Positions 49,434 through 52,518 of a DNA stretch of 64,000 nt are shown here, one piece after another. This DNA is from Brevundimonas sp. LM2 (GTDB taxonomy: Bacteria > Pseudomonadota > Alphaproteobacteria > Caulobacterales > Caulobacteraceae): assembly GCF_002002865.1 (NCBI RefSeq), contig NZ_CP019508.1:744001-808000 (forward strand), in the 5' to 3' direction. Every line of letters begins with the position of its first letter. Positions within the stretch are counted from its first letter, which is position 1. A program made the translations under genes and the position numbers. Below the pieces are notes generated by a model. That model had not been told where the DNA came from. It was given only the letters and a program-made list of their open reading frames with translations, and searched no databases.

Positions 49434-50603
49434 ATGCGATTCAAGACCTTGTTCCTGGCTTCTAGCGCGGCGGCGGCACTTGCCCTGTCGGCTGGTGCTG
49501 CTTCGGCTGAGCCGGACGGCTGGTACGGCGCGGTTGACGCGGGCTACCACTTCGCCCAGGGCCAGTATAACGTCGAGGCGGCCGGCAACGGCGTCAACTG
49601 GCAGATCGACGCCAACGACGGCTGGGCCGCGTTCGCGCGTCTGGGCTACCGGTTCAACCCGAACTGGCGCGTCGAGCTCGAGGGCGGCTACCGCTCGGGC
49701 GACGTCGGCACGATCCGTCACTCGACCGGCACGGTTCCGTCGGGCGTGTGTAACTTCACCCCGGCCACGGGCGCCTGCTTCTCGCCGGAAGGCGACGTCG
49801 AATCCACCACGCTGATGGCCAATGTCATCTATGACATCGGCGGCGAGTACTGGGGCGTGCGTCCGTTCGTCGGTCTCGGCGTCGGCGTGAACCGCGTCAA
49901 CACCGACTTCACCGGCACCATCCGCGGTCAGCGCGGCGTGTCGATCGTGGCCGACGACTCCTCGACCAAGTTCGCGGCCCAGGCCCTGGCCGGCCTGAGC
50001 TATGCGGTCGGCGACCGCGCCAACATCGACCTGACCTATCGCTATCTGACGGGTGAGTTCGAGTTCGACACGACCACGTCGTCGGCCCTGGCGGTCAACA
50101 ACTACGGCACGTTCGAAGGCGACTACGACGACAGCCACACCGTGACCCTGGGCCTGCGCTATGCGTTCGGCGCCGACGAAGCGCCGATGGCTCCTCCGCC
50201 CCCGCCGCCCCCGCCGCCCGCCGCCGCCCCGCCCCCGCCGCCGCCGCCGCCCCCGGCCCCGCGCCCGACCGCGCGTGAGTTCGTGGTGTATTTCGACTGG
50301 GATCGTTCGGACCTGACGGCCGAAGCCCGTTCGGTGGTGACGCAGGCCGCCACCTACGCCAAGTCGGGTCAACCGACGCGCGTTCTGGTCGTCGGTTACG
50401 CCGATACGTCCGGCTCGGCCGCCTACAACGTGGGTCTGTCGAACCGTCGTGCCCGCACCGTGGCCGACGCCCTGGTGTCCAACGGCGTCAACGGCGGCGT
50501 GATCGCCCTCGACGGCAAGGGTGAGACCAACCTGGCCCGTCCGACCGCCGACGGCGTGCGCGAGCCCCTGAACCGTCGCGCCACCATCGGCATCAACTTC
50601 TAG
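49434..50603 (+). CDS. OmpA family outer-membrane protein
   Basis: A 389-residue porin-like protein anchoring the outer membrane to peptidoglycan. Signal peptide about 1-24 (ALSAGAASA, cleavage before EPDG). An eight-stranded barrel covers about 25-243 (WYGAVDAGYHFAQGQYNVEA, YRFNPNWRVELEGGYRSGD, TVTLGLRYAFG). A proline/alanine linker follows (about 247-277), then the OmpA peptidoglycan-binding domain (about 282-389) with VYFDWDRSDLTAEARSVVTQ, VVGYADTSGSAAYNVGLSNR (binding Asp and Arg) and EPLNRRATIGINF. High-GC codon use fits the host core. A strong terminator follows. Confidence 0.94.
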   Translation: MRFKTLFLASSAAAALALSAGAASAEPDGWYGAVDAGYHFAQGQYNVEAAGNGVNWQIDANDGWAAFARLGYRFNPNWRVELEGGYRSGDVGTIRHSTGTVPSGVCNFTPATGACFSPEGDVESTTLMANVIYDIGGEYWGVRPFVGLGVGVNRVNTDFTGTIRGQRGVSIVADDSSTKFAAQALAGLSYAVGDRANIDLTYRYLTGEFEFDTTTSSALAVNNYGTFEGDYDDSHTVTLGLRYAFGADEAPMAPPPPPPPPPAAAPPPPPPPPPAPRPTAREFVVYFDWDRSDLTAEARSVVTQAATYAKSGQPTRVLVVGYADTSGSAAYNVGLSNRRARTVADALVSNGVNGGVIALDGKGETNLARPTADGVREPLNRRATIGINF

Positions 50604-50659
50604 GACGGTTCCGCCCGGTTCGCCGGGCGACCCGTTCGCCGATGACGCGACACGACCTG

Positions 50660-50696
50660 ACCGCCGGTTCCCGAAAGGGGGCCGGCGGTTTTGTTT
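50660..50696 (+). terminator. Rho-independent terminator after ompA
   Basis: Stem arms at 50660-50672 and 50677-50689 (13 bp in RNA, two of them G-U) close a GAAA tetraloop and are followed by TTTTGTTT. This is the clearest intrinsic terminator in the window and ends the ompA transcript. Confidence 0.9.
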
Positions 50697-50904
50697 GGCC
50701 CCGCCCCCTGTCTCCCCCGGGCGGATGGCCCCGGGCCTGTGGCCCGGATCACCCGGGATGCGCGAAAACCCGCCCGTCGCCTCCGCTTTTCTGGACAAGC
50801 CGGTTGATCCCGGTCGCGCGGGCGACGACAAGGGAGCCCATGTCACACCGTCGCACCTCGACGCTCCCGACCGTGTCCTCACCCTGCCCGAGCCGGGTCT
50901 GATC
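50697..50904. other. Gap between terminator and KpsS-like gene
   Basis: GC-rich sequence without a supported gene. It contains a hairpin CCGGGCC/GGCCCGG (50731-50747, 3-nt loop). The KpsS-like reading frame stays open through this gap, so an earlier start cannot be excluded, but the encoded sequence is not protein-like. Confidence 0.4.
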
Positions 50905-52518
50905 ATGGCCGACATCCGTATTCCCGCCCGCCGGACGCCCGCGCGCGCCCCGGCACCCACGGCGAGGGCCGACGCCCGGGCCGAGGCCAGGGTCGAGGGT
51001 CGAGGGGCGAGGGGCGAACGTCCCCCGGCGTCGCCCGAGCCTGAACACCCACGCGCTCAAGCCGCGCCGCTCCGCGAGTCGAGCGATAGCGCCCCTGAGC
51101 CCCCCCGCGCTCAAGCAGCGCGCGACCGCGTCGCGCGCGATAGCGCACTCAACCTGCAGTCCCGCCGCTTCCTGATCGTGACGGCCCCCTTCGGCCCGTT
51201 CGGCCGGATCCTGGCCGAGGCGCTGGAGGCGGGGGGCGCGCGGGTCTGGCGCATGGAGTTCAATGCCGGGGACGCGGCCTATTGGGGTCGGCCGGGGGCG
51301 GTGCCCTGGCGCGGCGCGGTGCGCGACTGGCCGGACGCCCTGGCCGGGCTGGTCACCCGCCTGGGCCTGACCGACCTGATCGTCTTCGGCGAGGGCGGAT
51401 CCTACAACCAGGCCGTCCTCAGCCAGGCCGAGGCGTTGAAGGCTCTGGCCGCCCAGGCAGGGGCGAGGGCCGAGGGTCGCGGGGCGAGGGAAGACGACCG
51501 CGCTCAAGCAACGAGCGACCGCGTCTCGAGCGATAGCGCCCCCTCCAATCCTGCCGCTCAAGCAGCGAGGCGCCGCGAGCCGAGCGTTAGCGGCTGGGCG
51601 CAACGCCCCCACCCCCTCAACATATGGGTGCTGGAGAACGGCTATTTCCGCCCGGACTGGATCACGGTCGAGCCGGACGGCGTCAATGCCTCCTCCGGCC
51701 TGCCCCGGGACCGCCACGCCTATGAGGCGGTCCTGCCCGAGATCGTGCCGGTCCGGCCGGTCGGGCGTATCCTGCCCCACCACGTGCTCAACATCAGCCT
51801 GTATCACCTGTTCGAACTGCTGGGCCGGCCCTTCTACCGCGGCTATGCCCCGCCCTACACCACCCCGCCGTGGCTGCAGTGCCTCGGCCATGTGCGGCGC
51901 TATTTCGGGCTGATGCTGGCCTCGCGGACCGAGAGCGAGGTCCGCGTCATCCGCGCCCGCGGGCCGTATTTCATCGCCTGTCTGCAACGCGAGGGCGACG
52001 CCCAGCTGCTGCGCTATTCCCACTACGCCGACAACACCGCCTTTCTGGCCGAGGTCCTGACCTCCTTCGCCCACCACGCCCCGGCCGAGGCCCGGCTGGT
52101 GGTCAAGAACCATCCCCTCGACCCCGGGCTGATGGACCTGCGCCGCATGACCCGGATCCTGGCCGTCGAGCGCGGCGTCGCCGACCGCGTCGACTTCATC
52201 GACGGCGGCAACCTGGCCCAGCTCTGCCGCGCCTCCAACGGCATGGTGGTCAACAACTCCTCCGCCGCCCTGTCCGCCCTGGGCTTCGGCACTCCGGTCA
52301 AGGTCCTGGGCCAGGCCTTCTTCGACATCGACGGCCTGACCGACCCGGCCCCCCTCGACGCCTTCTGGGCCGACCCGGCGACCCCCGACCCCGACCTGTT
52401 CACCCGCTTCCGCGCCCACGTCATCGCCCGCACCCAGGTCAACGGCAACTATCACGAACCCCGATCCCTCACCCCCACCGCCCGCGCCATCGCCAGACGC
52501 TTCGCCCAACAGGACTAG
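50905..52518 (+). CDS. KpsS-like capsular polysaccharide synthesis protein with in-frame repeat insertions
   Basis: About 537 residues; capsule_synth family, whose KpsC/KpsS members build the Kdo linker on the lipid anchor of ABC-exported capsules. The core is seen in two parts: RRFLIVTAPFGPFGRILAEA (about 90) to LTDLIVFGEGGSYNQAV, and LNIWVLENGYFRPDWITVEP (about 237) through LPHHVLNISLYHLFELLGRP, LVVKNHPLDPGLMDLR and NNSSAALSALGFGTPVKVLG. Two stretches do not belong to the family: the N-terminal 85 residues and about 188-233. Both contain a GRGAR block and pairs of a 38-nt repeat encoding AQA..DRV..DSA. The start is uncertain because the leader is built of repeats; ATG 50905 is the best of several. 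Confidence 0.85.
   Translation: MADIRIPARRTPARAPAPTARADARAEARVEGRGARGERPPASPEPEHPRAQAAPLRESSDSAPEPPRAQAARDRVARDSALNLQSRRFLIVTAPFGPFGRILAEALEAGGARVWRMEFNAGDAAYWGRPGAVPWRGAVRDWPDALAGLVTRLGLTDLIVFGEGGSYNQAVLSQAEALKALAAQAGARAEGRGAREDDRAQATSDRVSSDSAPSNPAAQAARRREPSVSGWAQRPHPLNIWVLENGYFRPDWITVEPDGVNASSGLPRDRHAYEAVLPEIVPVRPVGRILPHHVLNISLYHLFELLGRPFYRGYAPPYTTPPWLQCLGHVRRYFGLMLASRTESEVRVIRARGPYFIACLQREGDAQLLRYSHYADNTAFLAEVLTSFAHHAPAEARLVVKNHPLDPGLMDLRRMTRILAVERGVADRVDFIDGGNLAQLCRASNGMVVNNSSAALSALGFGTPVKVLGQAFFDIDGLTDPAPLDAFWADPATPDPDLFTRFRAHVIARTQVNGNYHEPRSLTPTARAIARRFAQQD
51054..51145 (+). repeat. First pair of 38-nt intragenic repeats
   Basis: Two units, 51054-51091 and 51108-51145, both beginning CGCTCAAGC and ending GCGATAGCG, start points 54 bp apart. 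Unit two contains an exact hairpin (GCGCGCGAC, 3-nt gap, GTCGCGCGC). Both are in the same codon phase and encode AQAAPLRESSDSAP and AQAARDRVARDSAL near the N-terminus of the KpsS-like protein. Confidence 0.85.
51501..51592 (+). repeat. Second pair of 38-nt intragenic repeats
   Basis: Units 51501-51538 and 51555-51592 begin CGCTCAAGCA and end GCGATAGCG or GCGTTAGCG. Their start points are again exactly 54 bp apart and in the same codon phase as the first pair, encoding AQATSDRVSSDSAP and AQAARRREPSVSG. They split the KpsS-like domain just before the conserved VLENGYFRPDW block. Confidence 0.85.

Follow-up and report, generated by a model that had tools for sequence, protein, structure and literature searches.

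A 38-nt palindromic repeat dispersed in Brevundimonas, with in-frame copies in a KpsS-like gene and other unrelated genes

Introduction

In-frame palindromes are best known from Rickettsia, and among the paired repeats the REPINs are inverted pairs. The Rickettsia palindromic elements (RPE) place a palindrome in frame within unrelated genes, so that a similar peptide appears at many sites. In PMC10969869 they are described as about 150 bp long, with nearly half of the copies in genes, and CIR, a repeat of the same bacterial order as the genome considered here, is described as strictly intergenic. The REPs, including the intragenic REPs treated in PMC3733652, are palindromes of 20-40 bp that occur in tens of copies, often paired, mostly beside gene ends and sometimes inside genes; that paper gives cases inside genes for several species besides Rickettsia. 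Tagged REPs carry a GTAG or CGTC tag and form mostly inverted pairs, and head-to-tail pairs are, according to the same paper, absent, under-represented or negligible in most tagged families. Likewise, REPIN and BIME consist of paired REP-like hairpins dispersed in a genome, with the BIME pairs described as inverted in PMC2817692. With respect to function, REPs of E. coli within 15 nt of a stop codon have been reported, in PMC12306157, to down-regulate translation. The words Brevundimonas and Caulobacter are absent from the main texts of PMC3733652 and PMC12306157, and no co-mention of “Brevundimonas” with “palindromic elements” was found in the open-licence papers searched; the family considered below may be described outside them.

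Here, four palindromic units in a KpsS-like gene of Brevundimonas are examined within a 64-kb window, the stretch of DNA to which window positions refer, and against the rest of the genome and its relatives. A sequence-only reading of the window had proposed that these units may represent an element of Caulobacterales comparable with RPE, and in agreement with that proposal the family to which they belong is dispersed and enters genes in frame, at sites that vary and are probably disordered. The dispersal of the units, their covariation, head-to-tail pairing and gene-adjacent location, and their in-frame copies in several unrelated genes are very likely to reflect a REP-like palindromic repeat that is non-autonomous, has become widespread in Brevundimonas and is tolerated as a linker where it lies inside genes.

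Two unit pairs in a KpsS-like gene

The KpsS-like gene holds two dimers of the unit, one in the N-terminal leader of the protein and the other in an expanded loop (Table 1). The places, 38-nt length and paired arrangement given in the sequence-only reading were all borne out: the four units start with CGCTCAAGC and end in GCGATAGCG in three cases and GCGTTAGCG in one, in both pairs the unit starts are 54 nt apart, with 92 nt covered by a pair, and all four units share one codon phase. The perfect 9-bp stem that had been claimed for one unit was found in unit 2, and the second pair indeed lies in the loop directly before VLENGYFRPDW. No further unit was detected in the 64-kb window at up to 9 mismatches. 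Position 50905 is the sole in-frame ATG, GTG or TTG between 50758 and 51178, and position 51178 already lies within the conserved domain of the gene; given a usual start codon, the first pair must therefore be translated.

Table 1. Features of the KpsS-like locus and of a second gene with both kinds of repeat (window positions unless a locus or genome is named)
Feature	Position	Strand	Remarks
KpsS-like gene, host of four units	50905..52518	+	Pfam Capsule_synth PF05159 match
Heptamer array (GAGGGTC)n before pair 1	about 50973..51013 (to 51020)	+	encodes ..RVEGRGARG
Palindromic unit 1	51054..51091	+	inner stem imperfect; RAQAAPLRESSDSA encoded with flanking bases
Palindromic unit 2	51108..51145	+	perfect 9-bp stem; encodes RAQAARDRVARDSA
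Expanded loop, residues 173-240 of the KpsS-like protein	51421..51624	+	from orthologue alignment; low pLDDT in second half
Heptamer array before pair 2	about 51450..51490 (51449-51497)	+	encodes ..ARAEGRGARE
Palindromic unit 3	51501..51538	+	inner stem 4/5 pairs; encodes RAQATSDRVSSDSA
Palindromic unit 4	51555..51592	+	inner stem 4/5 pairs; encodes AAQAARRREPSVSG
ThiC gene, both repeat kinds in frame	L099 2571-4658 (G000 3200970-3203057)		unit in leader, inverted heptamer array in variable region

Comparison with orthologues places the second pair in a segment that is variable in length. Of 61 KpsS-like loci found, the 56 with long open frames were aligned and five partial ones left out. The loop, which comprises 68 residues here, has 10 residues in 47 orthologues, 9 in one and 21-60 in eight; the notion that the segment is a conserved part of the KpsS domain, which the sequence-only reading had set against its own proposal, is thus ruled out by the loop of just 9-10 residues in 48 of 56 orthologues. 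A unit was recognized in two of the 56, intact and in the same frame in the loop of the L036 orthologue and decayed, as spotted by eye, in that of L032 (B. bacteroides), and further decayed units may have been overlooked. In several relatives the loop is expanded without a recognized unit, so that it seems tolerant of any insert. The AlphaFold2 model of the protein has pLDDT below 50 at residues 1-66, 68-76, 211-213 and 221-232, with the low-pLDDT part of the loop placed between a helix and the strand of VLENGYF. A Foldseek search with this model returned KpsC at rank 10 (target TM 0.54), below sugar epimerases of low TM.

Some properties of the assemblies around this gene are recorded separately. 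Many Brevundimonas draft contigs stop just upstream of the KpsS-like gene (about 50400-50900 of the window), and of 36 draft upstream contig ends near it among loci L030-L085, 23 start inside an ompA-like gene. A structured RNA as the cause of these ends was discarded, there being no Rfam match in six loci. Brevundimonas-like contigs are also filed under other taxa, namely L036 (a Verrucomicrobiaceae MAG), L085 (a Bordetella MAG) and L088 (a Micrococcales MAG), probably through binning errors.

A dispersed family of covarying hairpins

Many copies of the unit were found elsewhere in this genome and in its relatives, a search that the sequence-only reading had named as a check on its proposal. 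The 736-nt segment gives 35 blastn matches against its own genome, self included, and the pattern CGCTCAAGC-N12..30-GCGWTAGCG has 21 matches in the genome versus none for the reversed control, which rules out chance or base composition. A covariance model built from 27 units (26 distinct) recovers 45 units in this genome at E<=1e-3. With the same model, units were recovered from 127 of 131 Brevundimonas genomes and none from the other four; counts per genome in this genus scan, obtained from about 51 candidates scored, are to be read as “at least.” In a sample of the phylum, 9 of 299 genomes match, of which four are Brevundimonas with 15-23 matches each, and the other five (of 295 outside the genus) have one weak match each, at E 5.8e-6 or weaker. 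In a sample of the family, E<=1e-4 is reached in 72 of 199 genomes, of which 38 belong to the genus. The 34 outside it, G133 and G158 among them, have 1-24 copies per genome, all of them weaker matches (best E 8.7e-10), which suggests sister palindrome families in other Caulobacteraceae. An Rfam scan of positions 50850-51700 for a known RNA family gave one weak and irrelevant match (E 0.58, under the gathering score). A repeat built on CcrM sites was likewise rejected, as GANTC occurs in merely 3 of 209 units; the unit differs from CIR in this setting also in being found inside genes.

The unit is a 38-nt stem-loop. Its outer arms (CGCT/AGCG) are followed inward by an internal loop (CAAGCA/GAT), then by a short GC pair and a GA/GA mismatch or GC pairs, and its core is a freely varying, self-complementary 5-bp stem with the loop CGC. 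Variants of the outer pairs (GGCT/AGCC, CCCT/AGGG and TCCT/AGGA) are also present. Among the 27 units, 26 of them distinct, there are 36 double-change cells versus a shuffled mean of 15.1, with 36 reached in none of 500 shuffles. All 26 rows have a standard pair at 17-25, where four pair types occur. When 209 distinct units were collected from this genome and from the genus loci, the inner 5-bp stem was perfect in 184, and 16 types of it were seen. The scan left the three middle stem positions free, yet its result is biased upward because most loci had been picked by the model; in the pattern matches, a set not picked by the model, the stem is perfect in 16 of 21. Six single units folded as RNA are only moderately more stable than their shuffles (z -0.4 to -2.3), so that the case for the hairpin is one of covariation and not of energy. 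This covariation shows that pairing has been kept or copied, and alone is no proof of function. The perfect stem is broken in four of the eight in-gene units versus 7 of the other 37, a difference that is not significant (p=0.085). In the yebC leaders of L259 and L263, a unit-like hairpin differs in its core, which is longer (CCCCGGAT/ATCCGGGG) and is flanked by similar outer arms; the family may therefore include length variants that the 38-nt model misses.

Position, pairing and polarity

When units were counted inside and outside genes, as the sequence-only reading had advised, 8 of the 45 in this genome lay in genes and 37 were called outside them. The gene finder was a home-made codon model that sets some gene starts wrongly, and units 795054, 795108, 2688009 and 3201032 were reassigned to genes by hand. 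A few others (e.g., 1771497) lie in open frames that may be coding. In a tally made with this gene finder, 186 units are divided into 9 in genes, 26 in leaders, 47 after stop codons and 104 others, with the in-gene class undercounted on account of mis-started genes. Adjacent units form head-to-tail pairs in 45 of 47 cases, and the direct pairs are spaced 45-55 nt apart.

Extragenic units are also oriented with respect to their neighbors, the GCGATAGCG end lying close to a gene boundary in this genome. Of the 37 extragenic units, 35 have a called neighbor on each side, and these were collapsed to 27 clusters. The next gene boundary is at a median of 14 nt on the 3' side of the unit versus 138 nt on the 5' side, and a boundary lies within 25 nt in 19 of 27 clusters on the 3' side versus 1 of 27 on the 5' side (Wilcoxon p=0.0013). 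A sample of 100 loci from other species of the genus (148 distinct units, some orthologous, with home-made gene calls) was treated likewise. On the 3' side, an antiparallel stop is no more than 15 nt away in 35 of 91 cases, and a parallel start is 14-24 nt away in 21 of 46. On the 5' side, the corresponding figures are 8 of 79 for gene ends within 15 nt and 5 of 57 for divergent starts within 24 nt.

The leaders of yebC illustrate such boundary positions. YebC is present in 129 of 131 genomes, and among the 30 loci that best match a query taken from a locus with a unit, which by that choice do not give a genus average, seven leaders have a recognizable unit a short distance ahead of the start; in several of the seven, a promoter-like TGACA..GGCTAGA lies upstream of the unit. 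The stems of these units differ yet are self-complementary, and their flanks have diverged; other leaders are empty or decayed.

Copies within genes and their reading frames

The eight in-gene units of this genome, four in the KpsS-like gene, two in the N-terminal leader of TsaD, one in the leader of ThiC and one in a DUF2390 gene, are all sense and in the frame that encodes AQAASDRVASDSA. The DUF2390 unit follows codon 3 of a gene whose ATG overlaps the stop of the upstream gene, and the TsaD start in this genome would be a GTG, placed opposite the ATG of other species in the alignment. Besides the KpsS-like gene, the host genes are SelO, TsaD, ThiC, DUF2390 and a desaturase. SelO is found in 128 of 131 genomes and TsaD in 127. 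For both, the 30 best matches to a query taken from a unit-carrying locus were fetched, so that the frequencies of units in them are not averages for the genus. Of the 30 SelO loci, 12 carry a unit (at up to 8 mismatches) in the same loop, L218 and L219 have none, and the other 16 have inserts that differ in length or sequence, several recognizably related; the loop of L153 apparently has three tandem peptide copies. Of the 30 TsaD loci, three have units in the leader: L275 (this genome), L291 and L302. Twenty extra TsaD loci were added, chosen for a longer or broken match; in these, L311 and L312 have units in a TsaD loop, ALKQ-type peptides occur in 17 of the 20, these two included, and L309 has three tandem ALKQ-type copies in the loop.

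Two sense frames of the unit are in use, one giving AQAASDRVASDSA in the KpsS-like protein, SelO and ThiC and the other ALKQ..ASRAIA in the TsaD loop. The single codon phase noticed in the sequence-only reading thus holds within the KpsS-like gene and does not extend to the family. Two of the three sense frames of the unit have no stop codon, and two antisense frames are also open. The spacing of paired units is divisible by 3 in six of seven coding dimers (45 or 54) versus 9 of 40 other pairs (Fisher p=0.0026, with coding pairs that are few, partly orthologous and not independent, three of them moved to the coding group by hand); the seventh coding dimer, in L312 at 55 nt, shifts into the other open frame. 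All in-gene copies examined are sense despite the two open antisense frames, an orientation that mere tolerance does not explain and that pure passengers need not show.

A separate heptamer repeat

The G-rich block that the sequence-only reading saw before each pair is present in both places, the two being 85% alike. It is a repeat in its own right, however, composed of GAGGGTC heptamers that are also found elsewhere in the genome (G000 2381743, 3201575-3201688, 1532313 and 2553303). The heptamer has 7 matches in the window versus 0.19 expected, six of them overlapping registers of the two arrays, and 11 partly overlapping matches genome-wide versus none in the reversed control. The arrays at 2381743 and in ThiC (3201575) are inverted pairs, and the former has no listed unit within 40 kb. 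In the ThiC and KpsS-like genes, both of which also carry palindromic units, the arrays are in frame and encode EGRG peptides.

Comparison with known systems and alternative explanations

The unit agrees with REPs in the broad sense: it is a short palindrome, its many copies are alike, and most of them (37 of 45 called outside genes) are extragenic and close to gene ends. It is unlike tagged REPs in having no end tag and in pairing head-to-tail (45 of 47) rather than mostly in inverted orientation, no Y1 transposase having been found in its genome, and unlike REP-RAYT systems in that no RAYT flanked by the repeat was found. The direct pairing, at 45-55 nt, also distinguishes it from BIME. With RPE it shares in-frame insertion in unrelated genes (KpsS-like, TsaD, SelO, ThiC and DUF2390). 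The resemblance to RPE drawn in the sequence-only reading stands to the extent that both are dispersed palindromes read in frame and finds no support as regards build or kinship, the unit being 38 nt long with 8 of 45 copies in genes, whereas RPE are about 150 bp long with nearly half in genes, a comparison made by description rather than by sequence. The family is closer to REP elements occasionally found inside genes than to RPE, which may be regarded as an apt analogy, not as demonstrated kin.

One alternative is that the units are true REPs, formerly mobilized by a RAYT-type Y1 transposase since lost. That reading fits the size, the palindrome and the copy number of the units, as well as their location near gene ends and the occasional copies inside genes, as far as REPs are described in PMC3733652. 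The Y1_Tnp family also gives matches in the Caulobacter vibrioides control genome, which speaks for it as well. The consensus ends of the 27-unit alignment nevertheless have neither GTAG nor CGTC (GGTAGCG is a minority variant of the right arm only), and the head-to-tail pairs are unlike those of most tagged families in PMC3733652. Moreover, PF01797 (RAYT, IS200/IS605; Y1_Tnp) was not found in this genome, and the four of 131 genus genomes that have it gave no unit in their Y1_Tnp loci of 2-3 kb; RAYT mobilization from those loci was rejected accordingly. An origin as true REPs is consequently judged unlikely. No empty site with defined ends was obtained, nor a target duplication, which together with the terminal inverted repeats of an insertion sequence would typify a MITE, neighboring units and diverged flanks being confounding; SelO of L218 and L219 looks empty beside that of L116, with ends that are not defined.

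A different possibility is that the units have a function as RNA or DNA elements and are retained at gene boundaries for it, e.g., as mRNA hairpins that tune translation or decay, with the in-gene copies as by-products. This would account for the 3' polarity (19 of 27 clusters versus 1 of 27), for the stops and starts close to the 3' side in the genus sample, and for yebC leaders whose differing stems stay self-complementary before the start while their flanks diverge, and the effect reported in PMC12306157 for E. coli REPs near stop codons points the same way. Against it, occupancy is patchy, with units in 7 of 30 yebC leaders and others empty or decayed, four of 131 genomes gave no unit, and the genus sample includes orthologous loci and home-made gene calls. 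Boundary function is therefore a tentative candidate, rather less probable than not, and is partly compatible with the preferred explanation. By contrast, there is almost nothing to recommend regarding the AQAASDRVASDSA segments as an evolved linker or domain of the KpsS-like protein that is alike elsewhere by chance or base composition. The segments are in frame and the coding gene is intact, as such a reading expects, yet the same DNA unit lies mostly outside genes, which already refutes it, occurs in unrelated proteins as well, and is recognized in 2 of 56 orthologues.

The preferred explanation, a non-autonomous REP-like repeat, may be pictured as follows. The unit would multiply in the genome, most surviving insertions would lie between genes, and copies in leaders or after stop codons would be transcribed as hairpins. 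Since a stop codon is absent from two of the three sense frames, a copy that lands where a protein is variable or disordered would be tolerated if the length of the insert is a multiple of three, and it would then be read as a linker such as AQAASDRVASDSA. The dimers of the KpsS-like protein are, on this explanation, more likely to be passengers that the enzyme tolerates than to contribute to its function.

Implications

Intragenic REPs as such are already known. What looks new is that several features come together in one family: the units are untagged, pair head-to-tail and have a 3'-end polarity, 127 of the 131 genomes are without a Y1 transposase, and in-frame sites recur in SelO, TsaD and the KpsS-like gene. 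A bolder and improbable reading is that the unit serves as a directional element of gene boundaries and has a way of spreading of its own: on whichever side of a gene it lies, its GCGATAGCG end points toward that gene, its copies in leaders and genes are sense, and it is found repeatedly in the same few SelO and TsaD loops. If true, a bacterial repeat would both mark gene borders and supply new protein linkers. The 3'-end polarity together with the near-absent Y1 transposase poses a concrete question about how such a repeat spreads. In the 131 genomes of this one genus, empty, filled, tandem and decayed sites occur side by side in the same conserved genes, which makes it testable how a selfish repeat turns into protein sequence.
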